A stretch of 40,758 nt of DNA from Coriobacteriales bacterium (GTDB lineage Bacteria; Actinomycetota; Coriobacteriia; Coriobacteriales; UMGS124): NCBI GenBank assembly GCA_017515595.1, contig JAFWFL010000039.1, positions 1 to 40,758 on the forward strand, read 5' to 3'. Positions within the stretch are counted from its first letter, which is position 1. Every line of letters begins with the position of its first letter. The position numbers and the translations under genes are program-made. Below the pieces are notes generated by a model. That model saw only the letters and a list, made by a program, of their open reading frames with translations, had not been told where the DNA came from and ran no database searches. Shown piece by piece: positions 16 through 34,141 of the stretch.

Positions 16-163
16 ATGACAACTCAAATGCGTTTGAGCTGTCATTCCAAGAGCCATGTGCGCTTATGCCGAGAAGAACGTGCAGGTCAAAAGCGCGGGC
101 TTCTCGGCATGTTGGGCCAAATTGGCTATTCATGACAACTCAAACGCATTTGAGTTGTCATGA
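16..163. repeat. Nested palindromic repeats upstream of suf operon
   Basis: Two copies of a TGACAACTCAAA dyad sit here. The first is at 16-28/33-45 with one mismatch. The second is a perfect 15-bp dyad at 130-144/149-163 with loop CGCA. They flank a third inverted repeat at 66-76/100-110. No open frame of note runs through. The block probably ends a gene lying off the left edge (terminator-like) or is a composite repeat element. Confidence 0.7.
66..110. repeat. Inverted pair of TGCCGAGAA motifs
   Basis: Perfect 11-bp arms (66-76 and 100-110) each contain the 9-mer TGCCGAGAA/TTCTCGGCA that is greatly over-represented in the window. The pair can fold into a hairpin. The same arrangement recurs at 18498-18546. 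Confidence 0.75.
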
Positions 164-201
164 TTTGCAATTTTCCGTGCACAGGGTTGCGCGGAAGCCC
201 A

Positions 202-236
202 AAACCTGACAAAAGGACGGACCTTTTGTCAGGTTT
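202..236. terminator. Strong hairpin before sufC
   Basis: Perfect 15-bp arms at 202-216 and 222-236 with a 5-base loop. On the minus strand the right side is A/T-rich, and the loop side carries GGACGG as in other palindromes here. A TATAAT hexamer (236-241) follows directly and could be the -10 of the suf promoter, though no good -35 is visible. Confidence 0.6.
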
Positions 237-398
237 ATAATCCTACTAAATTAGGGGGATTTAATGAATTGGGCGGATTGCAACGTCAGACGCGTCATAT
301 ACTGCCATAGTAGGCATATCAGATTAGGGAGAGTTTTTGCGCGACGGTCCCGGGATATGGAAGTCTTAAAGCGCAAAAAACAAGTGAGGGAGAGTGTT

Positions 399-1175
399 AT
401 GCCAGGAGAGTGTTCAAACGTACTGAATGTAAAAAACCTCAGTGCCGGTACGGCCGAGAAAACCATTCTGCATGGGATCAATCTCAGTATCAATATGGGA
501 GAGACCCATGTTTTAATGGGCCCCAACGGAGCAGGCAAATCTACCTTTGGCCGTACGTTAATGGGTGATCCCACCTATGAAGTCCAAAGCGGGGAAATCC
601 TATTTAACGGAGAAAACATTACCACCCTGAGCGCAGATAAGCGCAGCTTAGCGGGTATGTTTATGTCATACCAGGCTCCGGTGGAGATTCCCGGCGTACC
701 TCTCTATACGTTTTTGCGCTCCATTGCCCGCAAGCGTCCCGAGCTCAAAATGAACGGCGGCGTGTTCCGCAAGCATATTGGTGAGCTGGCAGATAAGCTT
801 CACCTTGACCAGTCCTATTTGGTGCGCGACTTTAACGTTGGTTTCTCGGGCGGAGAGCGCAAAAAGGTTGAAATGCTGCAGCTCCTGTTGCTTAAACCCA
901 AGCTTGCCATTCTCGACGAGACCGACTCGGGCCTTGACGTTGATGCGCTTGAGGTTGTTTCGAACGGCATCAGAGCATATCGCGAGAGCTGCGACGGAGC
1001 GCTCCTTATTATTACGCATAACGTTCGCATTCTTGAACATCTTGATGTTGACCGCACGCATGTTATGGTTGCGGGCAGGCTTGTGGCGTCAGATGATGCC
1101 TCGCTCATCTCAAAAATAGATAAGCAGGGCTTTAGCTCCTTTACGGCTGCCGCGGAGAGTGAACAGCCATGTTAG
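399..1175 (+). CDS. sufC: SufC, Fe-S assembly ATPase
   Basis: ABC-type ATPase of the SUF system. It works with SufB and SufD as the cytosolic SufBCD scaffold for Fe-S clusters. Visible motifs are Walker A (GPNGAGKST), signature FSGGERKK with the SufC-typical ERKK instead of QQQR, Walker B (LAILDETDSGLD) and the H-loop ITHN. The start at 399 is chosen because GAGGGAGAG lies just upstream and the protein then begins 11 residues before the first beta strand. At 258 aa it matches the family (about 250). An in-frame ATG at 264 would add 45 residues with no family match. The stop overlaps the sufB start, so it is the first gene of sufCBDSU. Confidence 0.96.
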   Translation: MPGECSNVLNVKNLSAGTAEKTILHGINLSINMGETHVLMGPNGAGKSTFGRTLMGDPTYEVQSGEILFNGENITTLSADKRSLAGMFMSYQAPVEIPGVPLYTFLRSIARKRPELKMNGGVFRKHIGELADKLHLDQSYLVRDFNVGFSGGERKKVEMLQLLLLKPKLAILDETDSGLDVDALEVVSNGIRAYRESCDGALLIITHNVRILEHLDVDRTHVMVAGRLVASDDASLISKIDKQGFSSFTAAAESEQPC

Positions 1176-2578
1176 ACGAAGAACTGCTTTCGCACGATCC
1201 GTCGAGTCTCTATGATTTTAAGAAATCAGAAGAAGGCTATGAGCGCGCAGATGAGGGCCTGACGCCTGATTTGGTGCGTGATATTTCTGCGAAAAAGGAT
1301 GAACCGCAGTGGATGCTTGATTTGCGTCTCCATTGTCTTGATGTGTATGGACATATGCAAATGCCGCCCAACTGGGGTCCTTCAATTGCTGGCCTAGATA
1401 TGAATCATATCTCGGCATATGTATCGCCCAAAACTGACCAGGCTAACAGCTGGGATGATGTACCTGAAGATATTAAAGATACGTTTGAGCGCCTGGGTAT
1501 TCCCGAGGCTGAACGCGCAAGTCTCGCAGGCGTAGGCGCCCAGTATGACTCGGAGCTTGTGTACCACAACATGCGCGAAGAAGTGGCAAAACAGGGCGTT
1601 ATTTACAGCGGCATAGAAGAAGCCCTTCATGGTCCCTACGAGCCGCTTATTCGCGAACGGTTTATGCAGCTTGTGCCTCCCAATGACCACAAGTTTGCGG
1701 CGCTTCACGGGGCGGTTTGGAGCGGCGGCTCGTTTGTGTACGTTCCTGAAGGAGTGCATGTAGAGTTCCCGCTGCAGAGCTACTTCCGCCTGAACGCGGC
1801 AGGCGCCGGCCAGTTTGAGCATACGCTTATTATTCTGGAGCCGGGCAGCGACCTGCACTTTGTAGAGGGTTGCAGCGCACCAAAGTACAATGTTGCCAAC
1901 CTTCATGCGGGTTGCGTTGAGCTCTATGTGGGCAAAGGCGCACGCTTGAGGTATTCGACGGTTGAGAACTGGTCAAAGAACATGTACAACCTCAATACCA
2001 AGCGTGCCCGCTGCGAAGAAGACGCGACAATAGAGTGGGTAAGCGGCTCTTTTGGCAGCCATGTGAGCTACCTGTATCCCACGTCGATTTTGGCCGGCGA
2101 CCGCTCGGTATGCGAGTACACGGGCATTACGTTTGCCGGCAAAGGCCAGAACCTCGACACAGGAACCAAAGTTGTGATGCTCGGCGCCCATACCAAGTGC
2201 TCGCTTGACGCAAAGTCGCTGAGCAAAGGCGGGGGCGTCTCGACATTCAGAAGCGCCGTTGTGGTAGACGAGCATGCCGAGCATGCCAAAGCCACAGTAA
2301 GCTGCGCTTCGCTCATGCTTGATGACAAGTCGCGCTCAGACACCATTCCAGCCATGGATGTGAGATGCCGCACAGCGAATGTTGGACATGAAGCTACCAT
2401 TGGCCGCATTTCTGACGAGACGGTAACATACCTCATGAGCAGGGGAATTCCTGAGGGAGAAGCCCGCACTATGGTGGTCAACGGTTTTGCAAACCCCGTG
2501 AGCAAAGAGCTCCCCATGGAGTATGCCGTAGAAATGAATAACCTAATTAAAATTGAGATGGAAGGAGCTGTGGGATAA
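1169..2578 (+). CDS. sufB: SufB, Fe-S cluster scaffold subunit
   Basis: Scaffold protein of the SufBCD complex, 469 aa, the usual length. The beta-helix core and C-terminal helical region are recognisable: the block around HFVEGCSAPKYNVANLHAGC, then SRSDTIP, then YLMSRGIPEGEA near the end, all SufB-specific. The start overlaps the sufC stop by 7 bases and the stop shares a base with the sufD start (TAATG), so translation is coupled. No intein is present. Cluster assembly takes place in the cytosol using sulfur from SufS/SufU. Confidence 0.96.
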   Translation: MLDEELLSHDPSSLYDFKKSEEGYERADEGLTPDLVRDISAKKDEPQWMLDLRLHCLDVYGHMQMPPNWGPSIAGLDMNHISAYVSPKTDQANSWDDVPEDIKDTFERLGIPEAERASLAGVGAQYDSELVYHNMREEVAKQGVIYSGIEEALHGPYEPLIRERFMQLVPPNDHKFAALHGAVWSGGSFVYVPEGVHVEFPLQSYFRLNAAGAGQFEHTLIILEPGSDLHFVEGCSAPKYNVANLHAGCVELYVGKGARLRYSTVENWSKNMYNLNTKRARCEEDATIEWVSGSFGSHVSYLYPTSILAGDRSVCEYTGITFAGKGQNLDTGTKVVMLGAHTKCSLDAKSLSKGGGVSTFRSAVVVDEHAEHAKATVSCASLMLDDKSRSDTIPAMDVRCRTANVGHEATIGRISDETVTYLMSRGIPEGEARTMVVNGFANPVSKELPMEYAVEMNNLIKIEMEGAVG

Positions 2579-3831
2579 TGGTTGCACAGAATCTTTGCGA
2601 ACCAGAAGCATCTCTTTCTAAAGTAATATTGACCTGCACAAATGAGCTTCCTTCGCCAACCTGGAACCATCTTAATATCAACGGGATCAATCTTAAGGTG
2701 CCTGCGGTAGAGGGGTTTGATGAGCAGGCGTGGGTTGCGCCAAAAATACGCCCCAAGCGCGATGTTCCTGCATACAACGTGTCCGATGACCATGCGTTTG
2801 ATGCTCCTGAAGGCACAGCTGCTCCGGCCGGCCCCTGGGCCCGGGAGTCTGAGAACTCACAGGCTGCAAAACCGGTAGGAGGCATGGGTCCTGCGGCAAC
2901 CGCATGGCTCGAAGCAGCCGGCAAGCAAAAGACCATTGTTGTAGAGGCTACAGGCGACGGAACAAAGCCACTCTATGTGGTTGATCTTGATGACCCTCAG
3001 GTGGGAGAGCTTGCCGTTCTGGATATTAATGTTCAGGAGAATGCGCAAGCAGAGCTCGTGTTAATTAGCTCAAACCGCGCTGACACTGCTGCAGCTTTGG
3101 GCACGCTTGATACCCGGGGCTGGCTCGTGCGCGTGAACGCGGCAGACGGCGCCCGCGTAAAAATCAATGAATTCATTGCCTGCGATAGCTCGGTGCAAAT
3201 GCTAAGCAACCTTGGTTTTTGCCTGGCTAACGGCGCCACGGCAGATATTTCGCAATACTGCCTGGGGTCGCAGATTTTAGCTTTGGGTTGTGCCGCAGAT
3301 CTCGTAGGAAAAAGCGCTGCTTTAAACGTTGATGCCCGTTATGTGGGACGCGGTACAGAGCAGCTTGATTTTGGCTACTCCGTGCGAAACCGCGGCGTTA
3401 AAACGGTGAGCAATCTCTCTTTACATGGCGTTTTGGTTGATGAGGCAAACAAGTCACTGCGCAGCACCATTGACCTGGTGCACGGCGCAAAAGGCGCAAG
3501 CGGCGTCGAGAATGAATCTGTGGTTTTGGTAGGAGAGGGAGTTGTAAACAAGACACTTCCTGTTATTCTCTGTAATGAAGATGATGTCGCAGGTACCCAC
3601 GGAGCGAGCGTGGGCGAAATTGATCCAAGCCAGCTTGCCTATATGGCAACGCGAGGAATCACATCTGACGACGCCCGCGAACTTATGATGGAAGCAACAT
3701 ACAGCGCCGCTTTTGCTGCCGCGCAGCACATTCCCCAGGCATACGAGGCGGTATACCGCGCTGCCTGCAGGGCTTTTGGCGAGGATATTGCGCAGGAACT
3801 AGCCGCTGATCTGGAAGGAGGGCTCTCATGA
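2578..3831 (+). CDS. sufD: SufD, Fe-S assembly scaffold partner
   Basis: SufD, 417 aa, paralogue of SufB and partner of SufC in the SufBCD complex. The C-terminal half has the family pattern GTHGASVGEIDPSQLAYMATRGITSDDAREL. The N-terminal 150 residues are poorly conserved, as is normal for SufD. It is coupled on both sides: TAATG with sufB, and a 4-base overlap (ATGA) with sufS. Confidence 0.94.
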   Translation: MVAQNLCEPEASLSKVILTCTNELPSPTWNHLNINGINLKVPAVEGFDEQAWVAPKIRPKRDVPAYNVSDDHAFDAPEGTAAPAGPWARESENSQAAKPVGGMGPAATAWLEAAGKQKTIVVEATGDGTKPLYVVDLDDPQVGELAVLDINVQENAQAELVLISSNRADTAAALGTLDTRGWLVRVNAADGARVKINEFIACDSSVQMLSNLGFCLANGATADISQYCLGSQILALGCAADLVGKSAALNVDARYVGRGTEQLDFGYSVRNRGVKTVSNLSLHGVLVDEANKSLRSTIDLVHGAKGASGVENESVVLVGEGVVNKTLPVILCNEDDVAGTHGASVGEIDPSQLAYMATRGITSDDARELMMEATYSAAFAAAQHIPQAYEAVYRAACRAFGEDIAQELAADLEGGLS

Positions 3832-5213
3832 GCTTAAATGATGCCCTTTTGGGGGCTGCCGCAACAGCCGCCAATTTTGTTGAGAATGCCGCGTCAAAGT
3901 ACGCCGCAGCGCGTGAAGCGGTGCGCATTGCCGAGGAAGACGCCAAAGCAGCGTTATCAGGCGACCCTGCTGACATCACTAAGAGTCCTTTTAGAATAGC
4001 GTATCCGCTCCTTGCGGCAGACCCAACGTATGCGTATCTCGATAACGCAGCCACAGCTCAGCGCCCGTCTATGGTGCTCAAGGCTCAGAAAGAGTTTTAT
4101 ACCACCATGAACGCGAACCCGTTGCGCGGGCTCTACCGCCATTCGCACATGGCTACGTCTGCCATAGAAGATGCCCGCAAGCATGTGGCCCGCTTTTTGG
4201 GCGTTGAGGCCGCAAGCGAACGGGACGCCGGGAACCAGATTGTGTTTTTGCGCAACACCTCAGAGGCCTTGAACCTGCTTGCACACAGCCTTCCCGAAGT
4301 AGTTGGTCTTGAGCCGGGTGACCAGATTTGCATCAGCATTATGGAACACCATTCGAATCTGATCCCCTGGCAGCAGGCCTGCAAAAAGTACGGCGCCGAG
4401 CTTGTGTATATGCGTCCCAATGAGGAAGGTGTGCTCGAGAGCGCGACCATTCAGGCATGCATTGGGCCAAACACCAAGATTGTCTCGGTCGTACATATAT
4501 CAAATGTTTTAGGAATACCAAACCCTATTGCAGAGATTGCCCAGCGGGCACACGAGGTAGGTGCCGTTATGGTGGTTGACGGAGCGCAGTCGGCTCCGCA
4601 TATTCCTATAGATGTCGAGGAGCTTGGGTGCGACTTCTTTGCGATGAGCGCTCACAAGATGGGCGGCCCCATGGGCGTAGGCGTGTTGTGGGGAAGGCCC
4701 GAGTTTCTCGACCAAATGGAGCCCATGCTTACGGGCGGCGAAATGATTGATTCCGTGACCGAAGAAGACGCGGTGTGGGCCCAGGTTCCCCAAAAGTTCG
4801 AAGCCGGCACGCAGGATGCAGCAGGTATTTATGCGTTTGACGCTGCGATAAGCTATTTGGAGTCAATAGGATTTGAGACTATAGAAGAGCGCGAGCGCAA
4901 ACTCTCGGCTTATTTGGTGCAGAAGCTTAAAGAGTTGAGCTTTATTGAGATTGTGGGCTCGGCAAATCCTGATGCGCATTTGGGAGTTGTATCGTTTAAC
5001 GTAAAGGGAATTCACCCTCATGATGTAGCAAGCCTTCTTGACGAGGAGAACGTTGCGATCCGCGCAGGCCATCATTGTGCGCAGCCGCTGCTTACCTGGA
5101 TGGGCATCTCGTCATGCTGCAGAGCTAGTATCGCGTTTTATAACAGCACCCATGATATAGACAGACTTGCAGAAGCACTTGAGGGAGTTTGGGGGATGTT
5201 CCATGCCCATTAA
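3828..5213 (+). CDS. sufS: SufS, cysteine desulfurase
   Basis: PLP-dependent group II cysteine desulfurase. It takes sulfur from cysteine and passes it through SufU to SufBCD. Lys277 in SAHKMGGP binds PLP and Cys417 in RAGHHCAQP is the persulfide cysteine. The protein is 461 aa. The first ~55 residues form an Ala-rich helical extension (NAASKYAAAREAVRIAEEDA) before the usual N-terminus (YAYLDNAATAQRP), so it is longer than typical SufS (about 405 aa). The ATGA overlap with sufD supports this start. The 3' end overlaps sufU. Confidence 0.95.
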   Translation: MSLNDALLGAAATAANFVENAASKYAAAREAVRIAEEDAKAALSGDPADITKSPFRIAYPLLAADPTYAYLDNAATAQRPSMVLKAQKEFYTTMNANPLRGLYRHSHMATSAIEDARKHVARFLGVEAASERDAGNQIVFLRNTSEALNLLAHSLPEVVGLEPGDQICISIMEHHSNLIPWQQACKKYGAELVYMRPNEEGVLESATIQACIGPNTKIVSVVHISNVLGIPNPIAEIAQRAHEVGAVMVVDGAQSAPHIPIDVEELGCDFFAMSAHKMGGPMGVGVLWGRPEFLDQMEPMLTGGEMIDSVTEEDAVWAQVPQKFEAGTQDAAGIYAFDAAISYLESIGFETIEERERKLSAYLVQKLKELSFIEIVGSANPDAHLGVVSFNVKGIHPHDVASLLDEENVAIRAGHHCAQPLLTWMGISSCCRASIAFYNSTHDIDRLAEALEGVWGMFHAH

Positions 5214-5709
5214 TGAGTTGTATACACCTGCTCTGCTTGAGCACAGCCAGGATCCTTTTAACAAATATGCGATGGAGAACCCCACGTGTACGCATGAGGG
5301 CATAAACCCAAGCTGCGGAGACGATATTGTTCTGAGCCTGCGTTTGAGCGACTCGGATATCATAGAAGAAGCGGCGTTCACCGGCAGCGGCTGCGCCGTG
5401 AGCCAAGCCTCGGCAGATATGATGGCAGATCTGGTATGCGGTCTTGACCTGGCGCAAGCCAGAGATCTCTGCAAGCTCTTTATACAAATGGCACGCGGAG
5501 AAGCCACAGATACCGAGCTCCTTACAGAGCGGCTTGGCGAAGCGGCCTGTCTCAAGACAATTGCCCGCATGCCGGCCCGCGTGAAGTGTGCCGAGCTTGC
5601 CTGGCGTACCCTCGACCAAATGCTCGAGGACCGCCAATCCGGCGGTACCGGCAGCAACCTCAAAGCCGCAACCACCGAGGACGGCATTCCCGGCGTCAGA
5701 GATCTCTAG
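5203..5709 (+). CDS. sufU: SufU, sulfur acceptor/zinc protein
   Basis: SufU-type sulfurtransferase that accepts the persulfide from SufS. At 168 aa it has the zinc ligands Cys38 and Asp40 (PSCGDD), Cys64 (SGCAVS) and Cys129 (RVKCAELAW), with the SufU-specific insertion between the last two. The start at 5203 (MPINELY) is preferred over an ATG at 5167 because the family begins MPINELY-like and GGGGGA lies just upstream. It overlaps the sufS stop by 11 bases and is the last gene of the operon. Confidence 0.93.
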   Translation: MPINELYTPALLEHSQDPFNKYAMENPTCTHEGINPSCGDDIVLSLRLSDSDIIEEAAFTGSGCAVSQASADMMADLVCGLDLAQARDLCKLFIQMARGEATDTELLTERLGEAACLKTIARMPARVKCAELAWRTLDQMLEDRQSGGTGSNLKAATTEDGIPGVRDL

Positions 5710-5715
5710 TGGGAT

Positions 5716-5832
5716 GCGAGTTTTGACGGGTGCTAGCATGATAAGATGTAAATCTCAAAGGGTTTCTCGGTAAAAGCCCTGGTAATTTAAATCTTTTGAG
5801 AATTGATCATGCTAGCGCCCGTCAAAACTTGC
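5716..5832. repeat. Long inverted repeat after sufU
   Basis: Arms of 26 bp at 5716-5741 and 5807-5832 match except for two transitions. The 65-base interior has smaller stems (CTCAAAG/CTTTTGAG and AGGGTTT/AAAGCCCT) and a near-copy TTCTCGGTA of the abundant motif. It is large enough to be a MITE- or REP-like unit and also sits where the suf transcript should end. Confidence 0.7.
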
Positions 5833-5855
5833 ACTATGTTCAAGAATTGATAAAC

Positions 5856-5900
5856 AAATGGGGCGGTTCGTTTGGTACATTCCAACGAACCGCCCCATTT
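5856..5900. terminator. Bidirectional terminator between suf operon and 5922 gene
   Basis: Perfect 17-bp arms (5856-5872/5884-5900) rich in GC, ending in TTTT on the plus strand and in AAA/TTT on the other. It separates two convergent transcripts. Confidence 0.8.
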
Positions 5901-5921
5901 TGATTCAGAGCGTTGTGTTAT

Positions 5922-7547
5922 TTAGGACAAATTGCGCGCGGCAGAAGCGTTGATTCTTTGTGCGGTTGCCTGGGCAAGGCGTGAAGTGACGGTTGTTGGT
6001 TCGCCCAGTTCGCCTTGGGCAGATTTGAGCGTGGTATCGGCACGGACGGATTTCTCCGGATGGATCTCTATGCTTTGGAAGCGATTCGCCATAAATTCGT
6101 CGCCAAAATGCTCGGCATAGAAGAGGTCTGACTGAGAGCTGGGGGTCTTGCCGCTCATGCGCTCATACCAGCAGTCGTTAGCCTGCAGGGTCATAACGCC
6201 ATCGACAACCAGGAGAATTGCACATATGGTTGTCACAACATAGCGTGCCTTCCAGGGAATCTTATTAATAATGATAAGCAAACCGGGCAAAAGGGTCTTG
6301 ATCCAAAGCACGCCGAGAATACCCCAGAAGATAATGAACAAGAGGCTTGTACGTCCGTCTATGTTCATAAAAGATATAATGTTAATGGTTCCGTCCTCAT
6401 TAAACCAAGGGCCCGAGTAATCCCAGGCAACCTCGCCAAATGCGAACTCCATAAACCAGCTGACCAGGTATTCAAAAGCGCCGCCAATGATGCCGCTCAC
6501 AACAAATATGAGCAGTGTGCTGCGGTTATAGATTCTGTTGAGCGCGATCGTCATAAGCACCGCACCAAAACCGTAGATGGGCGAGAACGGACCAAATAAG
6601 AGTCCGGCCCTGTCCTGGTACCCGCCAAATACGAGCGCATGGTAAACCGTCTCTATAAAGAGGCCGAGAATAGAGGCGATTACAAAGACCCAGAAAAGAT
6701 TAAAGAAGTTGAGTTCAATATATCCCTTACCGCTCATATCATAGCCAATGGTGCCGTCGGCTACGCGGTCGCGTGTTGTTTGTACCCTTTGCTGCTTCTT
6801 GAGGATACGCTCTTCTGTAAGACGAGGGTCAACATAGGTGCGCACAATAAGAACGGCTGTCAGGTAAACCAAAGGAGCAATAATATCAAGCTTTACACCT
6901 TCGAGCATGATCTCGCAGGCTATGATACCAATGGTCAAAAATACCAGAACATTTGCAATTTTTGCGGCGCCCCGCCGTTTGCTCAGTAAAAGCCTGATGC
7001 CCAAAATCATGGAGAGTATTGCCGTGACGGTAAGAAGCGACGCCATAACAATGGCGATGACAAGCGTAGAGGTAGACCAGGCAATTTCTACGCCTTCGAG
7101 GGCAACCGAGATAAATGCCCAAGAGACAAACAGGAACACTCCGGCGAGAGCAAAGCCGCCCACAAGCATAATGATGCCTAAGATACGCAGCGGTAAGGCA
7201 ATTTTGCCCGAGTCATCCAGTTCAACAATTCCCTCTTCTATAAGCTCTTCTTCCTGGATGAGTTTTTCTCGGATTTTGGAAAACCCATCGGCTTGTACGG
7301 GAGGGATTGGTCCCGTGTCAAGCTTAAGCATAGGCGCTGATTGATCAGCCGCCACCGGCTGCGGCTGAGGCTCCAGAATGACTTGCTGAACACCAGGTTG
7401 TGGCTGGGGCTCCGGAATTACTTGTTGAACAACAGGCTGGGGTTGCTCAACCGGAACAGCCATTACCGGTACTTCCTGCTCCGGCAATTCTTCCGGTTCA
7501 GTCTTAAAGTGCTTGCCGCGATATATTTGGTCCGTTTGACCGCTCAC
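5922..7547 (-). CDS. CmpB-type multi-pass membrane protein (PF06541-like)
   Basis: A 541-aa protein. Residues 1-90 are a soluble Pro/Gln-rich segment with a 12-residue tandem repeat (VQQVI-EPQPQP at 40-51 and 53-64). Residues ~115-240 hold about four membrane helices. From ~280 there is a second membrane region with FFNLFWVFVIASILGLFIETVYH and LFGPFSPIYGFGAVL, the hallmark of the 'putative ABC-transporter type IV' (CmpB) family. Despite the name, no ATPase is adjacent and the function is unknown. The C-terminal tail after LQANDCWYERMSG is soluble. The start is GTG (7547), with AAAGGAG about 6 bases upstream. It appears monocistronic. Confidence 0.8.
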   Translation of the reverse strand: MSGQTDQIYRGKHFKTEPEELPEQEVPVMAVPVEQPQPVVQQVIPEPQPQPGVQQVILEPQPQPVAADQSAPMLKLDTGPIPPVQADGFSKIREKLIQEEELIEEGIVELDDSGKIALPLRILGIIMLVGGFALAGVFLFVSWAFISVALEGVEIAWSTSTLVIAIVMASLLTVTAILSMILGIRLLLSKRRGAAKIANVLVFLTIGIIACEIMLEGVKLDIIAPLVYLTAVLIVRTYVDPRLTEERILKKQQRVQTTRDRVADGTIGYDMSGKGYIELNFFNLFWVFVIASILGLFIETVYHALVFGGYQDRAGLLFGPFSPIYGFGAVLMTIALNRIYNRSTLLIFVVSGIIGGAFEYLVSWFMEFAFGEVAWDYSGPWFNEDGTINIISFMNIDGRTSLLFIIFWGILGVLWIKTLLPGLLIIINKIPWKARYVVTTICAILLVVDGVMTLQANDCWYERMSGKTPSSQSDLFYAEHFGDEFMANRFQSIEIHPEKSVRADTTLKSAQGELGEPTTVTSRLAQATAQRINASAARNLS

Positions 7548-7865
7548 AACAATCTCCTTTTACATATTCAATCAAAATGACGCCGCATATTCTACACGGA
7601 ATATGTCTCTGCACCAAGTGGTTTTTGAATGGTTCTCCTAATATTACTCTGTAACATGTTGTTTTTATTTATGTGGAGTTCCTAGGGAGTATTTGGAGAT
7701 TGGCTGTTTATGGTGTGGTAGCTTGATGCTCACCGATGTTCTTTTTACCCTGAGAGAATTTAACGTGGTATACACGGTATTTTTGAGGGGAATACTCCAT
7801 ACTGTTTCTGAGCACGAAACCGTGTGTGAATTGTCAAATGCGTTTGTGAGGAAGGATATTCTATT
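7548..7865. promoter_or_regulatory. Divergent intergenic region
   Basis: 318 bases between divergent genes, with no ORF of interest. It holds a small hairpin CATATTC/GAATATG near 7593-7612, an inverted GGAGTATT/AATACTCC pair (about 7686 and 7792), and CAAATGCGTTTG at 7835-7846, the same 12-mer found in the palindromes at 25-36 and 141-152. AGGAAGG at about 7850 is the ribosome site of the dehydrogenase. Promoters for both genes must lie here, but no clear -35/-10 pair stands out. Confidence 0.45.
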
Positions 7866-8746: not shown

Positions 8747-8813
8747 CTTGATGATAATGCGTGAACTTGGGGTATCATGCATCTGTGTGTTTTTTCTTGC
8801 AAGGAGTCGGAGT

Positions 8814-13660: not shown

Positions 13661-13663
13661 CAG

Positions 13664-18497: not shown

Positions 18498-18546
18498 AAG
18501 TCCAAGATGCCGAGAGACCCTCTTGGCTTCTCGGCATCTTGGACTT
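18498..18546. repeat. 18-bp perfect hairpin holding two TGCCGAGA motifs
   Basis: Arms at 18498-18515 and 18529-18546 are perfect complements, with a 13-base loop. Each arm carries the 8-mer TGCCGAGA. The right copy is the full TTCTCGGCA. The context is intergenic, like the pair at 66-110, and it may act as a terminator. Confidence 0.8.
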
Positions 18547-18640
18547 AAACTTAAGTTCTGATAATGTATATTTTGAGTACCCTATTTAACAGTAAAATTT
18601 GACAAGGGGTACCCCATTGTTTAGGAGGTCTTCTCTTAAC

Positions 18641-24134: not shown

Positions 24135-24271
24135 CCGACCCCACCTCATTTCTCTGGCTACCAAAGAAACCCGGCCTGCTCAAAACAACGGACGCAGGGC
24201 TATCCCCGGGGATTACTTCTTCCCAAAGCCCCACGGAATAGGATACAGTTATCCCTGCCCACTGTTCTCTT

Positions 24272-25323: not shown

Positions 25324-25355
25324 GACAGTTTCTCCTTTCATTGTTGGGTACAGAA

Positions 25356-25389
25356 CATAAGGTATCCCCGTGAGTAGCGATACCTTATG
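25356..25389. terminator. Hairpin overlapping stop of second surface gene
   Basis: Perfect 11-bp arms CATAAGGTATC/GATACCTTATG (25356-25366/25379-25389). The right arm contains the stop codon of the 25385 frame. Confidence 0.7.
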
Positions 25390-28155
25390 ACCGTCCGGCA
25401 ATTGTTAGGCCGTAACTCACGGTAGCGGTATCTGTGACCACCTGGTTGCCTTTGCTGTCGGTGATAATGCAGAAGTAGTCACCCGGTGTTGCTACGAAAT
25501 AAGCAGAGGTATGCTCGGAGCTGTTGACGGTTGCTACAACCGTGCTGGCCATCTTAAGCAAAGCATCCTGTATGCGAGATTCAAGGCTATTCTCGACAAG
25601 GTATTCTTGCAGAGTTCTTCCGGGTTCCCTATACCCAGCAGCTTGCTGCATGTGTGATTTGATTGATGATGCCTGCGCGGTGAACTGTTCCGAGAAGGAG
25701 CTGGGATCTATCGTGCCTAAAAGTTCGTGCGCGTAGTCTCTTTGGGCAGAGGCCCAATCTGTCTTACGCCGCCATTCATAGGTATAAGGTGCAAAACCGC
25801 CTTCTATCTGCACTGTGATGGCATAGGTATTGCGGGAAGAGCCGTCCTTAGGAATGATACCTCCCGATGGCTGCTGAGTGACATCGAGCTGTTTGACGAG
25901 CCGGCTGCCAAGCAGTTCTCCGTCCTGATTGTCTGTATGGGGTTTGGCGGTTCCTGAAGGTGCACTAAATTTTGGGGTAGTAACGGTAACTGTGTCAGAA
26001 AGTGCCCGGCGGCCTACAAATTCGCGTACAAAGAAGTAATATTCACCAGGCTGGTCAACGGTTATTTCACAGTGCAGCGGATCGGAGCCTTCCCCGGTTG
26101 ATGTGTAATGAGTGTAATATTCGTTGTCTTTGTAAAGAGTAAACGCGAGCGAGTTAAAGGTAGACGGTGTGGTGTTCGCTACCGTGATGCTGAGTGTGTA
26201 TTGGTATTTGCCGGCATTGACAGAGAGTACACCACCTTTGGGCTGTTCTGTGATAATAAGCGGTTCTTCAAAAGAATAACCTGTGATCATAACCGTAATT
26301 GGGTCGGAATCTGCCCAGCGCCCGGTAGAATCCTCTACATGGATGTAATACTCACCGGGATAAAAGACAGTAAAATCACAGTACAACCGGTCGGGATCAT
26401 CACTGTTTTTCGCGATAACCTCTCTGTCTAGTTTGCCGTCTTTATAGAGCCAATACTTCATTGATCCCGTACCGTCAGCCATAGTGATACTGAATTTCAT
26501 ATAACTGGGTTTAAGTCCTATAGTGCCACCCACAGGCTGCACTGCTATGGTAAGACCGCCGTCCGCATTGTTTTGCGGCCAACGCATGGTGTCTGCAGAA
26601 GGTTCGCTTGATTCCTGTTTGGTGACGGTTACTGTATCAGAAAGTGCACGGCGGCCTGCGAATTCCTTTACATAGAAGTAATACTCACCAGGCTGGTCGA
26701 CAGCTATTTCGTGGTGCAGCGGGTCGGGGTCATCTTCGGGTGTTTCATAAGAGGCGTATAATTCGCCGTCTTTATAAAGATCAAACGTCAACCAGTTTAC
26801 AACGCTTGGTTTCTGTTCGCTATTGTGATGCAAAGTGTGTATTTGCCGGTAACCTTAGAGAGCACACCGCCTTTGGGCTGCTCTGAAATAACAAGTGGTT
26901 CATCATATGTATACCAAGGGGTCGTAACCGTAAATGGGTCGGAATCTACCCAGCGGCCCGTAGAATCCTCTACATGGAAGTAATACTCACCGGGGTTTCT
27001 GGCTTGCCATTCGCAGTATAACCGGTCAGGATCATCGCCGTCTTTCTCGGTAAACCCCCCGTATATTTCTCCGTCTCGATAGAGCCAATACTTCATTGAG
27101 CCTGTGCCGTCAGCCATCGTAATACTGCACTTGTAATAACCAAGTACATTCGACAATTGCCCGCCCTCGGGCTGCACTGCTATGGTAAGACTATTCTCCT
27201 TAGCGTTTTGCGGCCACCTTAAGCGAAGCTTATTGAACAGGTCTGCCGCGCTTTCAAGGGGCTGGGCTTCGTCTGATGAAGTAGTCAGGCCAAAGTCATC
27301 GGAATCAGGTTCCTGTGTGTCGCCCGCGAGCCACGCCTGAAGTCCTGTCCAGCCAATGCCGGTTGGGTCATGGCCTGAAGCTTCCTCGGCAGCTTCTGTT
27401 GCGGCTTGGGTGTTTGGTCCGAATGAGCCGTCAGCCTCTCCGCAGTCAAAGCCGTTCTCGTTGAGAAGAACCTGGAAGGCTGCTACGGCATCGCCTTCGT
27501 CCCACAGGAAAAGGGTACCATCAAGATAATACTCTGCTTGCTCTTTTGTGCCGCAGACTGTGCATGTGTGCTCTTGTGTGCCTGCTGACCAGTCGGTAGC
27601 TTCTGTAAGAACGTACCACTCGCCAAAGGAGTGAGGCGCTAAAGGCGTAACTTCATCAAGTGTTGTCCCGCAACGGGAGCATGTATATCTTTGAATGCCT
27701 GCTTCTGTACAGGTAGCTTCCTGGATGACTTCCGTTAAGATAAAGTCATGATCCAAGGCAGGCAGATATGCTGTCTCTTCTTCTCCGCAGCGGTCGCATT
27801 CCCGCACTAATATACCCGGCTCTGTGCAGGTGGATTCTTCGATAACGTCCCACTCGCTCCAGTCATGGCCTAAGGCAGGCGTAGTAAGCGTGGTGGTATA
27901 GCCGCAGCGGCCGCAGTGGACACTATATAAGGCTTCCTCTGTGCAGGTTGCTTCTTCAAGAAGTACTTCTCTGCCATCCCAGCTGTGGGCGCCCTGTGTT
28001 GCAGGGCAATAGTCATCAGTAGTCTGCTGGGTAGCAGACAACAGGCTGTCTCCCATAACAGCTCGTGCCGCAAATGCCGCAGGCGTCACCCCCACCAAAA
28101 GTACCAGCGTGAGCGACAGAGACATCACCAAAGATAACAATTTCTGTCTCTTCAT
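25385..28155 (-). pseudogene. Second surface-protein paralogue, split by a frameshift
   Basis: Close paralogue of the gene ending at 19844: almost the same signal peptide, four CxxCG ribbon units, PG-binding-like domain and Ig-like units. The first frame (28155-26797, 452 aa) ends ...YTLCITIANRNQAL. The next frame (26833-25385, 482 aa) continues NSEQKPSVVNWLTFDLYKDGELY. In the internal repeat the corresponding string is YTLSITVANTTPSTFNSLAFTLYKD, so a single indel near 26800-26830 breaks one ~920-aa gene. No long homopolymer lies at the site, so slippage-type phase variation is unlikely. The N-terminal product could still be exported with its ribbons and PG-binding domain. Confidence 0.82.
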
Positions 28156-28258: not shown

Positions 28259-28280
28259 TTTGGCCAGCAGAGAGAGTGTA

Positions 28281-28339: not shown

Positions 28340-28347
28340 GCGTCTCG

Positions 28348-31125
28348 CTAATAGGCGTACACCAGCTCGAGCTTATCGCTGCCAATCACTGTTTGGTATA
28401 CACGGCTTTCGATGCGTGTGTATCCTGCGCGCCAGCCCACGTCTTCTTCGTGGTTGCGGGCACAGCGGTGCACCGTGATGTAGGCAACGTCACCCACAAC
28501 ATCAACCGCATCCATAAACGACATCTCGGCGCCGTCCTCGTTCGCACCTTCAAACGAGAAGTCCTGCATATGGACATATCCCTCTTCATCAAACCGGGCG
28601 GCTGAAGCAACCAGGTGGTAGCGGGCGAGGCCGTCATCAAGCAAAACCATGAGGTCGCCGTCGATAAAGGCGTAGCTGTGTGCGCCGCTGAGAACAAACG
28701 ATGGATCAGACGCCGGGGCCTTCTCGCCTGTTTCAACATCGACTGACCAGATGGTCCCCGAGATCCAGGGCTGCAGGTTTGAGCCTGCGCCTGAGTATTC
28801 GCTGTCGGCAAGGTAGTAGAGGCGATGCGTGCCGGCGACCGTCCCGCCTTCGCCGTCATCAACCGGGTCGGCGGCGATCACCACCATGTCCGAACCCATA
28901 ACATCCCCTTCAAAGGGGCTAACCAGCATCTCGAAGGCGCCCATTCCTTCCAGAGGAATGCGGGCGGCACCGCCCTGGCTGTAAAAGAGACCCGTACCTG
29001 CGACGTTGGCAAACGAGATGTAGAGCCAGCCAAATTGAACCTGTGCGCGTACCGAGAGCCCGCCCGAGGGGTAAGCCAGTGCGTAGACCGTGCCGAGGAA
29101 TGTGTCATCCGTGCCGTTATAGCGCACCGATCTGACATGGACGCTGTACGATTCATCATCATCCTCGGCATGCCGGTAACAGTAGTAGACCATGCCGTCG
29201 TAGGCGCAAAGCGGCATGGGAGAATCGCCGTCCTGCTTACCGGCCAGGGTTGTGACAGCACCGTCTTTATCTATACCCACCATGGTTCCGTCAATCGTAC
29301 ACACAAAAACGCCCGAAAGGTCGTCGACAAAACACCCGTTGTAATGCGTTCCTATGCTCAGCGGCTCGCCGCCGTCGAGGGGCAGCCGCATCATCTCAGA
29401 GCCGTCGTGTCGGTAGAACAGGCATCCGTAGCTGAACCACAGCTGCCCGTCCGCGGCGTCGCGCAGCAAGACCTTCTCGGCACCTTGGGCATTGCGGCAT
29501 ATGAGATCGTTCTCGGTGCCGCCTTCGCGTGAGAACGCGCCATAGATGCCGGTTGATTGGACCGAGGTTTCAGAGAGGCGCCAATAGTACACGTCGCCGC
29601 CCGTACCCACAAAGAGGCCACCGTTATTGAGCACGCCAATCCCCGTGAAGAGGATGGGCGGCAAGGCGTTCTGGTACGAGGAGAGCTTCTTCGACACGCG
29701 GCCGTACCACTGACGGGCTTCTTCAGCATTTGAGCTGTTGATGAGCGAGAGAAGCCCGGCGTCCTCGGCGACAATGGAGTAGATTGAGTATTCACCGCGC
29801 AGGCGGCATGCTACAAGAAACTCGGCGATATGGACGTATTCGTCCATGGAGTCCCACACACCCACGGTACCGCGAAACACTTCAAAAGTTCCTTCGAGCA
29901 GCGCTAGTTTATCCACAAGTACGGCGCTCACGTCGTAGATGGCGCAGAGCTGGCGCAGGCGCAGAATGAGGTCCTCGCCGCCCACCGCAACGTCTCCGAT
30001 AAGCGTGCCAATCTTTGTGCCGAGATCCCACGAATCCTGGAGGAGGTTGAACCGCGTGAGCACGTAGTCAAAGCGGTCGACGAACTTCGTAAAGGAGCCG
30101 CCGTCCCGGTAGTTGTTGGATTGCTTGAGGAAGGGAATGAGCGCGTCATCAAAGAGGGTCTCGGTATAGCCGGGCAGAGTGCGGCCCACCGTTTGGACAT
30201 CGTTGTCCACAATCAGCTTGAGCCTCGCCTCGAAGGCGGTCTCGAGATCTCTGTCCACTTCGCGAGCGGCTGCGGCGAGGTCACCCCCGCTTGCTTCTGC
30301 GATGGCGTCAAGCAGATAGGTGTAATCGGCATAATTCTTGCAGAGCGCCGTCAACCTGCGCACCTCGTCGATGCTGCCGTTGATACCGTCCACGGTGTTC
30401 GCGAGAAGGTCAATCGCGGCAGCCAGGCCGTCTTGGATTCCTGTTGTGGGCTTGACTCCCGTGTACACCGTTATGAAGTCCGCCCCCATCTCAGCGATGT
30501 CGGTCAGGTAGTCCGTCCCGGTCTTGAGATCATCAAGTGAACGCTGGTAGAGCACATCGCCGGAGTTTTGGGCATCGTAGGTGGCAATAAGATCCACGAG
30601 CACCTCAACGTAGGTGTCTTTGTCAGGCTCGTTGGAACCCGTGTGTACAAGGAAGTCAGCGAGGTTCACCGCGAAGTTCGCGAGTTTGTTCTGACGGTAT
30701 TGGACCACGAACGAGGGATAGGCATACACAGAGTCGGTCATGAGGGTGTCGCTGTACATGTCGATGAATGCCTGGAGTAGGCGTTCGTTACGGGCGAACT
30801 CCTCGGTAGGCTGATGATCGACTTCAAACTCAGTCTCGACGTATTCTTTGACCTCGTCCGGGATGAGAATTTGCACGAAGCTCGAGACAATGCCATTACC
30901 TGCAAACGCACGCAGCGGAGAAGACCCCAGAGCAGTTGCTGCGACCAGCATTGAACTTCCGGCCAAGAACGCCCGGCGGGTTTGAGGCTGAAAAACGTTG
31001 AAGGCCGATGAGATGTCCTGAGATGGAGAAGCATGTCCCTCCGGCTCAAAACCTTCCGGCACGACCCGTTCCTTCAACGCAAGGTCCTTTGGCCTATTCC
31101 CTGCGATTTCCTCTGCATGACGCAT
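28348..31125 (-). CDS. Secreted Tat-like protein, helical N-half and beta-propeller-like C-half
   Basis: 925 aa. An unusually long N-terminal leader (~45 residues) precedes QTRRAFLAGSSMLVAATALGSS, a twin-arginine-type signal. Residues ~85-480 are mainly helical with long heptad-like segments. From ~490 to the end are repeating strands (GGLFVGTGGDVYYWRL, GCFVDDLSGVFVCTIDGTMVGIDKDGAV, GMVYYCYRHAE) like DUF5050-type propeller repeats. The start has AGGGGGGA just upstream, 8 bases after the kinase stop, so it is co-transcribed with the sensor pair. GC content is visibly higher than in neighbouring genes, hinting at a different origin. A ligand-sensing role beside the kinase is inference. Confidence 0.75.
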   Translation of the reverse strand: MRHAEEIAGNRPKDLALKERVVPEGFEPEGHASPSQDISSAFNVFQPQTRRAFLAGSSMLVAATALGSSPLRAFAGNGIVSSFVQILIPDEVKEYVETEFEVDHQPTEEFARNERLLQAFIDMYSDTLMTDSVYAYPSFVVQYRQNKLANFAVNLADFLVHTGSNEPDKDTYVEVLVDLIATYDAQNSGDVLYQRSLDDLKTGTDYLTDIAEMGADFITVYTGVKPTTGIQDGLAAAIDLLANTVDGINGSIDEVRRLTALCKNYADYTYLLDAIAEASGGDLAAAAREVDRDLETAFEARLKLIVDNDVQTVGRTLPGYTETLFDDALIPFLKQSNNYRDGGSFTKFVDRFDYVLTRFNLLQDSWDLGTKIGTLIGDVAVGGEDLILRLRQLCAIYDVSAVLVDKLALLEGTFEVFRGTVGVWDSMDEYVHIAEFLVACRLRGEYSIYSIVAEDAGLLSLINSSNAEEARQWYGRVSKKLSSYQNALPPILFTGIGVLNNGGLFVGTGGDVYYWRLSETSVQSTGIYGAFSREGGTENDLICRNAQGAEKVLLRDAADGQLWFSYGCLFYRHDGSEMMRLPLDGGEPLSIGTHYNGCFVDDLSGVFVCTIDGTMVGIDKDGAVTTLAGKQDGDSPMPLCAYDGMVYYCYRHAEDDDESYSVHVRSVRYNGTDDTFLGTVYALAYPSGGLSVRAQVQFGWLYISFANVAGTGLFYSQGGAARIPLEGMGAFEMLVSPFEGDVMGSDMVVIAADPVDDGEGGTVAGTHRLYYLADSEYSGAGSNLQPWISGTIWSVDVETGEKAPASDPSFVLSGAHSYAFIDGDLMVLLDDGLARYHLVASAARFDEEGYVHMQDFSFEGANEDGAEMSFMDAVDVVGDVAYITVHRCARNHEEDVGWRAGYTRIESRVYQTVIGSDKLELVYAY

Positions 31126-31133
31126 AATCCCCC

Positions 31134-32480
31134 CTAAACCTCGCCGTGCGAAAGTGGTTCGTCATTTGAAACATCTAACAGTATGGTGAGCAGAAATACA
31201 GGAGCACTTTGGACAGTCATGGTGCCGCCTACTTCTTCTACGGATTTGCGGAGAGTGACGAGGCCGCCGGTTTCGGTGATGGGACCTGCGGGAGGGCGGC
31301 CGTTGTTGGTAAAAGCAACCGAAACCTGAGAATCCTCCTGGGTAATTTCCACGTCCAAGTGGTCACCGCCGGCGTGGCGCACGGCATTGGCGGCACATTG
31401 CTCAATGGCCTGGGCGAGAAGGACCCGGAACGTTGCGCTTTGGGGGAGCTCTCCTTTAATCTCAACATGAGCTCCTATCTGCCGGGCTGCCTTGAGTGCT
31501 TCTTGCAGAAGGTCCTTATCTTCTTCCGGTTGCTGAGCCTCGCGAAGAAGGTAGTCGTTGTTATATTCCAACAGGTGAAGGAGCTCGTCTTCTTTGACGT
31601 TTTCAGGGTGGTCGAGATAGTATTTTCCTGATAATAAAACGCCGCCCATCCGGTTGTGAACCGTTACCCTTGCATTCATAACTTCCCTGGCAGCTAAGAG
31701 ACTTCGTTCCTGGGCAGCCACCGTTTTCATGCGGTCTTGCACCTCTTTGAGGTGCCTGTTCTTTTGGGACAGCTCCTGCGTAATTTGATACTGTGCGGTC
31801 ATGTCGGCCGCCGTGAGCTGGTCATATTCTTTACCGTCAAGGCTGATTGTGCTCTTGGTAAACTGCCATGTTTCACCGGAGGGAGTGTGCACCAGGCAGC
31901 TCTTGGCTGACTGCCTGTTGAAAGATGTTTCCGCAACATGTGTTTTCTCGGCAGCAGCTTTTTCAATAGAGTGCCCAAACCGTCCCGCATCACTTAACAT
32001 CTCGCCGGTCACTTCTCGGCAAAGCTCGTTCATTTTGAGATTCGAGAGAAGTACTGTCCCATCTGAGCCACTCACCATAAGGGCAGTGGGGAGGAGGTCT
32101 ATGGTTTCGCGAATTGCATCAACGGTCAGGTGTGTGTCCCGGTACCTGCGGTTATATACCCCGTAGAAACAAATAACCACCGCAGAAGAAATACCAAAAC
32201 CGGCATAGAGAAGCCACGGCAGAGATAAGAATTCCAGTTCAAAATCATAGATGATCTCCGGGGGATTCTCAATCAGGACATTGTAAGAGTAATCCAAAAG
32301 GACCGACAAGAGGAAGAAGCCCACAACAAAATGCAGCAAAGACAGGAGGAGCAGCACACTGCTGAGTCTCTGTTTGAATGTCCTAAAAAGAACAACAGAC
32401 TGTGTAGCCGTAAGCAAAAGGGTTGCAAAGTAAATGATATATCCCGGAAGGGTGCCAACAATGCTCTGCATAGAACTCAT
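31134..32480 (-). CDS. Sensor histidine kinase
   Basis: 448 aa. Three to four N-terminal membrane helices come first, then a PAS-like segment (IRETIDLLPTALMVSGSDGTVLLSN) and a coiled linker. The phosphoacceptor-like stretch is ARVTVHNRMGGVLL, and a GHKL ATPase domain follows with QCAANAVRHAGG (N box), TNNGRPP (G1; Asp replaced by Asn) and ETGGLVTLRKSVEEVGG (G2). It should phosphorylate the LuxR-type regulator at 23484-24134. The start overlaps the upstream sensor gene by 4 bases, which indicates co-translation. Confidence 0.82.
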   Translation of the reverse strand: MSSMQSIVGTLPGYIIYFATLLLTATQSVVLFRTFKQRLSSVLLLLSLLHFVVGFFLLSVLLDYSYNVLIENPPEIIYDFELEFLSLPWLLYAGFGISSAVVICFYGVYNRRYRDTHLTVDAIRETIDLLPTALMVSGSDGTVLLSNLKMNELCREVTGEMLSDAGRFGHSIEKAAAEKTHVAETSFNRQSAKSCLVHTPSGETWQFTKSTISLDGKEYDQLTAADMTAQYQITQELSQKNRHLKEVQDRMKTVAAQERSLLAAREVMNARVTVHNRMGGVLLSGKYYLDHPENVKEDELLHLLEYNNDYLLREAQQPEEDKDLLQEALKAARQIGAHVEIKGELPQSATFRVLLAQAIEQCAANAVRHAGGDHLDVEITQEDSQVSVAFTNNGRPPAGPITETGGLVTLRKSVEEVGGTMTVQSAPVFLLTILLDVSNDEPLSHGEV

Positions 32481-34141
32481 GCCGCATCACCTCCCAGGTC
32501 AAATTTCATAACCAGCTGGCCGTCTTCGCAGGACTGACGCATAGGGATAGGAAGCTCCGGCAGCTCGAGAGGTTTCTCGGCATCTGCCATAATGAGAAGT
32601 TCATGATCCTGAAGGCAAATATAGAGGTTCGCGGTTTTCCCCAGCAGTGCTTCTGCAGCCGCTTCAAAGCAGTCGTAAACATCCATAGCCTTGCGGCAAG
32701 GGAGCGGGTTCTGAGCCTTCATATTCACAACGGCGTACGTCCCGCAGTAGCGGAGGTAGTGCGAGGACTCCTCCATGGCAGAGGCGAGTTCTTTTGCCGA
32801 GACGGTTTCCCTCTCGGCCTCCACCAGAACAAAATTTGCCTTACGCTTGACGTACGCAGTAAGTACCAGGGCTTTCTCAATATCAGGCCTGAAGGATTCC
32901 GTGTTGGGCTGCGCGTGCTCAAGGATCCCTGCAATCTTCTTTTGCACGGGATAGATTTCCTGCGCTGCTTTTTGATAGGCCCGGCTTCGCTCCTCAACCG
33001 CGGCTTGCTCGGCCAGAAGCTCCTGTTCCCGAGCAAGGACTTCGTTCTCTTGCAGGAGCTCCGTATTGGCATTTTGCAGCTCATTGTTCAGACGGTGTAC
33101 CGCGCTTTCATCTTCTTCGCGAAAAGCATAACCTGCCAGGATATCCATACCCAGAAGACGGGTATCCGCTGCAGGGTAAACCGGCGCCGCCAATGATTCT
33201 CTCAGCTGCTCCGCCGTTGCCCGAACGGGAGACAGTGTATGAAAAGCTTCGTTCAGTTTTTTGTCTGTAATGAGAACCGGAAGGTCCATCTGGGCAAAAA
33301 AACCGGGATAATTCTCATTACAGGGGATCAGGCGATTCTTGATGCAGGCTTCAAAAACACCAATCAGGCAAAAAATAATAACCTGCCCGTATTCAAACAG
33401 ACGGTAGTTCTTGGGAAGAATGTTTAAAAGAATAAGCAGAATCGGTATAAGAGCCAAGAAAAAGATGGGCCAGAGGGCTTTTTTCCAGCTGCCTCTTTTT
33501 TTACAGGCGGCAAGCAAAAAGAATATCCCCGCTATCATGGTACATCCAACCCAAGCATACGCAGCATAATAGAGGATGCCATGCGTATAGGTATTTGGCC
33601 TGCCGGTCAGGCCCGCCATGCCCTCATTAGGCAGAACCGGTTGATCATGCAGGATACCCTCGTTTGGGATGAACGCCAAAAGATGCAGGTCGTTAGTCAT
33701 AATGCCCAAGACCAAAAGCAGCGCGGGAACAAGCAGGAGCATCTCTTTGCCGACCCTCTTTTGCCGCTCTGCTCCTCTGTACAGACAAATACAGGTAATT
33801 AAAAAGAGCGTTGGTATGAGCAGGGTCGGGATATAGAAGATATACCAACAATACCTGATCATACCGGGCACAATGGCAATGCGGTACTTTGTGACCTGCG
33901 CGGCCACAAACAAGAGCATGAGCGGCGCGGCTGCCAGGAGATACCCTTTTGCCCGGGTGGGCAGCAGCCTATCTTTAACTGACTGCATCCAAAACAGAAT
34001 CAGGCCGGCATAGATGAGGTATTCGGCACAAAAACAAACGGTATTCATGAAGTGGTCAGTGATGCGATCAAAAAGATGCAGGCAGCCTGCCAGCAGAAGA
34101 AGAATTACAAACAACAATGTACTTTTATACTGTTTCCCCAT
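32477..34141 (-). CDS. Multi-TM sensor protein, kinase-like but without catalytic domain
   Basis: 554 aa. Residues 1-265 hold about eight membrane helices, like a 7TM-type histidine-kinase sensor region. A PAS-like piece, a coiled coil (NNELQNANTELLQENEVLAREQELLAEQAAVEERSR) and a dimerisation-like helix pair (QEIYPVQKKI) follow, where the usual His is absent. The C-terminal region (VLTAYVKRKANFVLVEAE) lacks N, G1 and G2 boxes. It is probably a sensing partner of the kinase encoded 4 bases downstream, forming a hetero-complex (inference). GGAGG lies eight bases before the ATG. It is the first gene of the 34141-28348 operon; no copy of the C6/G6 operator is found upstream. Confidence 0.7.
   Translation of the reverse strand: MGKQYKSTLLFVILLLLAGCLHLFDRITDHFMNTVCFCAEYLIYAGLILFWMQSVKDRLLPTRAKGYLLAAAPLMLLFVAAQVTKYRIAIVPGMIRYCWYIFYIPTLLIPTLFLITCICLYRGAERQKRVGKEMLLLVPALLLVLGIMTNDLHLLAFIPNEGILHDQPVLPNEGMAGLTGRPNTYTHGILYYAAYAWVGCTMIAGIFFLLAACKKRGSWKKALWPIFFLALIPILLILLNILPKNYRLFEYGQVIIFCLIGVFEACIKNRLIPCNENYPGFFAQMDLPVLITDKKLNEAFHTLSPVRATAEQLRESLAAPVYPAADTRLLGMDILAGYAFREEDESAVHRLNNELQNANTELLQENEVLAREQELLAEQAAVEERSRAYQKAAQEIYPVQKKIAGILEHAQPNTESFRPDIEKALVLTAYVKRKANFVLVEAERETVSAKELASAMEESSHYLRYCGTYAVVNMKAQNPLPCRKAMDVYDCFEAAAEALLGKTANLYICLQDHELLIMADAEKPLELPELPIPMRQSCEDGQLVMKFDLGGDAA

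Follow-up and report, generated by a model that had tools for sequence, protein, structure and literature searches.

DNA uptake sequences have been described for the Neisseriaceae and the Pasteurellaceae, both Gram-negative (accessible text of PMC3630211 and PMC1852404), and the tad genes of Micrococcus luteus are required for its transformation (accessible text of PMC4322843). In the present study, we analysed a frequent 9-base word, TTCTCGGCA, in the entire contig JAFWFL010000039.1 of a Coriobacteriales bacterium (assembly GCA_017515595.1; 40,758 nt, hereafter the window), in the genome to which the contig belongs and in other genomes of the class. The word most probably functions like an uptake sequence, within a DNA-uptake-sequence system that has dialects in this Gram-positive lineage. 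This reading is drawn from the rejection of a codon null, the lack of strand skew, the occurrence of one consensus in several reading frames and a turnover by substitution with excess retention, together with lineage dialects, intergenic inverted pairs and the presence of uptake-type genes; most of the tests separating it from codon usage, a polar site and a mobile repeat argue for it. The first-pass annotation of the window knew of no such sequence in Coriobacteriia, and we likewise found no earlier report in the open literature, a body that leaves most subscription papers and bioRxiv preprints outside.

The window genome (3.30 Mb in 134 contigs) was compared with G060, a single-contig genome of genus g2 from another family (f2) of the same order, which carries 733 exact copies of TTCTCGGCA. 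About 0.77 Mb of the former and 0.54 Mb of the latter were sampled, and 756 kb and 500 kb of these samples, respectively, entered the synonymous-shuffle run. Genes were called with a simple dicodon script rather than a standard caller, and the codon null was obtained by shuffling synonymous codons within each gene (60 shuffles). In the codon-null word ranking and in later analyses using L247, a 7.6-kb overlap of the window-genome set (L064/L247) was counted twice. The control word was TTCTCGGCA read backwards (i.e. reversed).

The motif belongs to the genome and not to the window, because 767 copies were counted genome-wide (407 and 360 by strand) against 38 of the reversed word, and 200 were seen in the 756-kb sample where an order-4 Markov model expected 45. 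The strong over-representation noticed in the window was thereby confirmed, and the word is not at background in the whole genome. Nor does the excess disappear once Ala-Glu-Lys codons are modelled: in genes of the window-genome sample, 129 copies were counted where synonymous shuffling leaves 19.9 (standard deviation 4.1, maximum 28), and 70 copies of an extended form where it leaves 3.3, the corresponding values for G060 being 135 against 14.3 and 111 against 5.5. Ranked by this null, TTCTCGGCA is the top 9-mer in both genomes. Ala-Glu-Lys sites are written GCC-GAG-AAR in 100 of 115 cases in the window genome, where codon frequencies predict 17, and in 81 of 102 cases in G060, where they predict 40. 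The tripeptide itself exceeds each of five permutations (115 against 45-75 and 102 against 31-49, respectively). The excess was found in every quartile of genes, by GC content as well as by coding score; its minimum falls in the quartile of lowest GC and, in G060, in that of the best coding scores. Codon usage as the cause is refuted for the window genome and G060.

The unit is longer than nine bases. In the window genome, the extended form is GNNYTTCTCGGCA, in which position -4 is mostly G and position -1 mostly a pyrimidine; this GNNY flank precedes 138 of 202 sampled copies there and 183 of 207 in G060. G occupies -4 in 78 % of the Ala-Glu-Lys-frame copies of the window genome and in 96 % of its intergenic ones (93 % and 100 % in G060); in those other coding frames that had enough copies, the share is 57-92 %. 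The flank is no simple codon effect, because C is the third base of only 29 % and 43 % of codons in the two samples. Unbiased counts in small samples further revealed sister words, i.e. TTCTCGACAG and TTATCGGCA in G216, TTCTCGCCA in G044 and also CTTATCGGCA in G060, and a single consensus, GNNYTTMTCGNCA, covers all spellings. In the samples of 11 genomes to which codon nulls were applied, this consensus was observed 108 times against 12.3 expected after synonymous shuffling in the window genome, 164 against 14.9 in G060, 44 against 1.9 in G216, 31 against 2.2 in G044, 25 against 3.3 in G184, 19 against 3.6 in G292, 6 against 0.7 in G195 and 6 against 1.4 in G170; it is at or near background in G142 (1 against 1.5), G003 (0 against 0.4) and G296 (2 against 0.7).

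For the class as a whole (296 genomes), we contrasted GNNY and HNNY forms of the degenerate word, since the exact 9-mer count misleads as a sole cross-genome measure (G073 has 351 exact copies and GNNY/HNNY counts of only 170/122); the contrast itself includes no codon null. The GNNY/HNNY counts are 758/213 in the window genome, 529/20 in G015, 753/91 in G292, 807/104 in G068 and 887/126 in G216, a genome of 1.4 Mb; the two genomes of genus g2 have 818/120 and 809/113. By contrast, G009 has, for example, 25/67 and G142 92/84. A genome was counted as having an excess if its GNNY copies numbered 150 or more and were at least three times as many as its HNNY copies; the tally was made by script in family f2 (79 genomes) and by eye in the other 217 genomes. 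On this threshold, 49 of the 296 genomes have an excess, namely 44 of family f2, the window genome and, from genus g26 of family f4, all four that were sampled. From count rows that match those of named strains and from NCBI lineages, we infer that family f2, which includes Olsenella and Atopobium, is the Atopobiaceae, and that G002, G184 and G234 are Olsenella sp. KGMB02461, Olsenella sp. KH3B4 and Atopobium minutum, respectively.

Some other words were encountered in the two samples. In that of the window genome, the secondary word GCCGAGACAC occurs 14 times against 0.4 after codon shuffling and is perhaps a variant of the same tag. In that of G060 (L073-L077, L079-L098), CCTACTAAGTAC is another repeated word (14 copies in 500 kb), and GCCAAAGAC and CCAAAGAGC exceed the codon null; the main motif does not explain these words.

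The changes between related genomes were followed in an alignment of G060 with G002 (180 kb, 93 % identity). Forty-five of 56 copies are unchanged, compared with 4,805 of 7,869 control words of the same composition (61 %); of 66 extended copies, 56 fit the pattern in both genomes, compared with 88 of 145 for shuffled patterns (P = 0.0017 and 1.8e-5, respectively, binomial values that assume independent sites). Nine of the 11 changed sites are one substitution apart, which points to turnover by point mutation.

Within the window, 15 exact copies were found against 0.25 expected (standard deviation 0.50, largest 2; 100 dinucleotide shuffles). Three are intergenic (67, 101, 18528), nine lie in the Ala-Glu-Lys frame and three in other frames (9008, 22225, 32013); ten carry the GNNY flank. 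The features are as follows.

67-75, minus strand: motif copy GTTCTTCTCGGCA, left arm of an inverted pair (shuffle count, frame check, folding)
101-109, plus strand: motif copy GGGCTTCTCGGCA, the pair's right arm (shuffle count, frame check, folding)
9008-9016, plus strand: motif copy without G at -4, in gene 8748-10220 (plus), Ser-Arg-Gln frame
10441-10449, plus strand: motif copy GGGTTTCTCGGCA, in PPK2 gene 10314-11525 (minus), Ala-Glu-Lys frame
10603-10611, plus strand: motif copy GGCCTTCTCGGCA, in PPK2 gene 10314-11525 (minus), Ala-Glu-Lys frame
15280-15288, minus strand: motif copy GTTTTTCTCGGCA, in gene 14942-15358 (plus), Ala-Glu-Lys frame
18498-18546, no strand assigned: hairpin with a 19-bp outer stem enclosing the copy at 18528-18536 (TGGCTTCTCGGCA) and an imperfect partner
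22225-22233, minus strand: motif copy GACCTTCTCGGCA, in gene 19844-23359 (minus), Leu-Leu-Gly frame
22590-22598, plus strand: motif copy GGCTTTCTCGGCA, in gene 19844-23359 (minus), Ala-Glu-Lys frame
23917-23925, plus strand: motif copy GATTTTCTCGGCA, in gene 23484-24164 (minus), Ala-Glu-Lys frame
24941-24949, plus strand: motif copy GGGTTTCTCGGCA, in gene 24433-25401 (minus), Ala-Glu-Lys frame
29474-29482, plus strand: motif copy GACCTTCTCGGCA, in gene 28348-31125 (minus), Ala-Glu-Lys frame
31945-31953, plus strand: motif copy without G at -4, in gene 31134-32480 (minus), Ala-Glu-Lys frame
32013-32021, plus strand: motif copy without G at -4, in gene 31134-32480 (minus), Cys-Arg-Glu frame
32574-32582, plus strand: motif copy without G at -4, in gene 32477-34141 (minus), Ala-Glu-Lys frame

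The 14 positions listed by the first-pass annotation are all exact copies, but the one at 22225-22233 had been overlooked. Its eight additional 8-mer cores were recovered (TCTCGGCA, 23 occurrences including the 15 exact 9-mers), as was the mostly Ala-Glu-Lys reading with 9008 and 32013 in other frames, to which 22225 is to be added. The intergenic hairpins that it placed at 66-110 and 18498-18546 both fold stably: -30.2 kcal/mol for 60-116 on the plus strand (z = -5.0), and -35.9 and -38.6 kcal/mol for 18490-18550 on the two strands (z about -8). Copies had also been described as scarce after 33 kb; the last exact copy ends at 32,582, but this is weak evidence within small-number noise, because 4-kb bins hold zero to three copies each and the bin 4001-8000 is empty as well.

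Genome-wide, exact inverted pairs 3-30 bp apart number 49 in the window genome, seven in G060 and six in G002, against none for the reversed control, and any such pair occurs in 30 of the 296 genomes. Of the 71 sampled intergenic copies in the window genome, 39 have a hairpin partner that differs at no more than one base, as do six of 59 in G060; for 27 paired arms, the median distance past a stop codon is 62 nt. The earlier proposal of inverted pairs in terminators stands for the intergenic pairs and is weaker for the terminators: only six of the 39 arms are followed by TTTT (background 7.7 %), and T-run termination finds little support as the purpose of the pairs. An inverted-pair scan of genome contigs had many phyla represented among the matches listed, including at least seven loci of Prevotella sp. 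Tb.RUG.323 (the genome of L108, 4.6 Mb), which has 284 exact copies against 44 reversed and is possibly a mixed bin.

The comEA, comEC and pilus genes, the search for which had been suggested along with the uptake proposal, are present in the window genome. comEA, with HHH_3 and SLBB domains, adjoins comEC (HHH_3, 1.4e-20; ComEC, 9.7e-39). A Tad/Flp locus encodes RcpC/CpaB, a ParA-like protein, a PF00437 ATPase, two PF00482 proteins and TadE, and a small open reading frame in it reads as a putative Flp-type prepilin with a G/XXXXEY site. No second PF00437 match was found in the window genome, the sole one being in the Tad locus; the Tad/Flp pilus is therefore the candidate if DNA uptake is pilus-borne. 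Besides its Tad locus, G060 carries PilC-like, pilin-like and PilT-like genes in a small operon (L249, 6616-10769; read from translations), which the window genome seems to lack.

Two dispersed repeats also carry the word. One is an intergenic element of 119 bp, resembling a miniature inverted-repeat transposable element (MITE), with 27-nt inverted-repeat ends (TGCAAGTTWTGACGGG.GCTAGCATGA) and five full copies in 776 kb, four of which contain the exact motif; no clear target duplication was seen in the 10-base flanks. The other is an intergenic hairpin family, TGCCGAGAAGAAC..GCAGGT, with five matches in the window-genome sample. Their locations are given below.

Window 5715-5833, no strand assigned: 119-bp MITE-like element with inverted-repeat ends, holding the word with one change (GGGTTTCTCGGTA)
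L034 19832-19950: 119-bp element
L039 1142-1260: 119-bp element
L058 1358-1476: 119-bp element
L068 12061-12179: 119-bp element
Window 67-109: second hairpin family
L071 201-243: second hairpin family
L032 899: second hairpin family
L033 3869: second hairpin family

Inverted pairs similar to this second family were seen in G184, G176 and G252. A separate word, GAGAACCGTCCC, is over-represented in the window (6 copies where 0.01 are expected) and may represent a further dispersed repeat.

Four other explanations of the word were weighed. Most coding copies do lie in the Ala-Glu-Lys frame (99 of 129 in the window genome, 75 of 131 in G060), as expected if the word were a by-product of preferred Ala-Glu-Lys codons, and this may largely hold elsewhere, e.g. 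in G073. As an account of the word, it is nevertheless extremely improbable, given the result of synonymous shuffling, a GCC-GAG share of 87 % at Ala-Glu-Lys sites of the window genome where 15 % is expected, a copy density that is higher between genes than within them (0.73 against 0.20 per kb; 0.79 against 0.31 per kb in G060) and a conserved G at -4 that lies outside the tripeptide. A site for chromosome maintenance (Chi, the FtsK-orienting polar sequence KOPS or a nucleoid-protein site) could also be short, frequent and conserved, as Chi- and KOPS-like sites are, and the extra conservation between G060 and G002 is silent on purpose. Chi and KOPS are polar sites, however, and no skew of the kind raised in the first-pass annotation was found in 25 stretches of G060, where the G-excess strand holds 101 extended copies and the other strand 95 (370 and 363 exact copies in total); genus dialects and inverted pairs are moreover unexpected of Chi, KOPS or nucleoid-protein sites. 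A polar site is thus not supported, and a maintenance role in general appears unlikely.

The hairpins might instead suggest an RNA-level signal, i.e. a terminator or other hairpin element that is common by chance, in keeping with the 49 inverted pairs of the window genome, the stable folds in the window and the position of paired arms shortly after stop codons. We regard this as very unlikely: 129 of the 200 sampled copies are inside genes and only 71 intergenic, T-runs rarely follow the arms, the two g2 genomes have just six and seven exact pairs for more than 730 copies each, and Rfam and tRNA scans of the window returned one tRNA and no other match. Remnants of mobile repeats, of the repetitive extragenic palindromic (REP) or MITE type, would explain why the 119-bp element carries the word and why 13 of the 71 intergenic copies are close to its core and another seven close to the second hairpin family. 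That the copies in general have this origin is just as hard to credit, since those in genes occupy several frames and are strongly conserved only to -4, and since the sites that changed between G060 and G002 did so by substitutions at aligned positions.

Several observations weigh against reading the word as an uptake sequence. With 767 exact and 758 degenerate copies, the window genome stays below the 'generally >= 1,000' of known systems (accessible text of PMC1852404). Thirty-five of the 79 family f2 genomes are below the threshold, and neither of the window genome's two family sisters has it in excess, with 27 and 23 exact and 27 and 43 degenerate copies. Two 9-mers of one dispersed repeat outscore TTCTCGGCA in the Markov ranking of the window-genome sample, and about 20 of its 71 intergenic copies lie in or near the two dispersed repeats. 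Few hairpin arms (six of 39) have a T-run. Spacing of copies is Poisson-like (variance/mean 1.14 and 0.94), i.e. near random, and even spacing was not seen. A 20-kb prophage stretch of G060 (integrase, anti-repressor, terminase, head protease, scaffold, capsid; nine of ten tested proteins match PHROGs) holds one exact copy, at its edge, against about 7.6 expected, and an ordinary chromosomal stretch also holds one, with four degenerate copies in each. ComEC is found in 286 and PF00437 ATPases in 295 of the 296 genomes, with or without the word; being near-universal, they do not discriminate within the class, are useless as carrier markers and neither prove function nor point to the receptor. 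Finally, uptake, binding and competence in these organisms are predictions from sequence. For this reason, and because copies number fewer than 1,000 and word and host differ, the word is not filed as a proven member of the described classes; its sequence features are mostly like theirs, dialects and hairpin pairs among them.

Under the uptake reading, GNNYTTCTCGGCA would be the dialect, in the window species, of a self-DNA tag for natural transformation. A putative receptor on or beside the uptake pilus, which would be the Tad/Flp pilus, may prefer double-stranded DNA bearing the word; candidates for it are the Tad-locus proteins and ComEA. Tagged DNA would then pass via ComEA and ComEC and recombine. 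Fragments with the tag, being taken up and recombined more often, would let the word accumulate by point mutation, on both strands and across genes, and repeated recombination would keep it, related genera having settled on neighbouring spellings of GNNYTTMTCGNCA. The more specific proposal, in which sequence-specific uptake proceeds through the Tad/Flp pilus and ComEA/ComEC, the receptor is unrelated to ComP and the dialects of the Olsenella/Atopobium genera, with a second family, act as gene-exchange barriers, is put forward with moderate confidence. If the uptake reading is true, DNA self-tagging arose again, in a Gram-positive lineage (Actinomycetota) and with dialects; Olsenella/Atopobium relatives would be predicted to be naturally transformable, a tag on donor DNA would be a practical key for their genetics, and the word would point the way to a sequence-specific DNA receptor of a new kind.

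Among described systems, the Neisseriaceae DNA uptake sequence (GCCGTCTGAA type, receptor ComP) is likewise a short non-palindromic word in very many copies, with hairpin pairs and with dialects that follow lineage (accessible text of PMC3630211, PMC1852404 and PMC6370729). The word differs, the host here is a Gram-positive member of the Actinomycetota, and its receptor and uptake are putative; against the 767 exact copies found here, N. meningitidis has about 1,900 and the other carriers covered by those texts have 943-5,918. The hairpins here mostly have no T-runs, and Neisseria hairpins, too, have fewer T (accessible text of PMC1852404). The Pasteurellaceae uptake signal sequence (e.g. that of Haemophilus influenzae) is, according to the same text, also a genome-wide tag with hairpin-forming pairs after genes, in another host and with another word, as opposed to the weak T-runs and fewer than 1,000 copies found here. 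No tag is tied to M. luteus in the accessible text of PMC4322843 and PMC6370729: 'uptake sequence' is absent from the former and appears in the latter only for Neisseria or in a reference. In its machinery, M. luteus is close to the window genome: it has ComEA/ComEC and Tad/Flp genes and no comG cluster according to these texts, and the window genome likewise combines ComEA and ComEC with a single PF00437 ATPase situated in the Tad locus.

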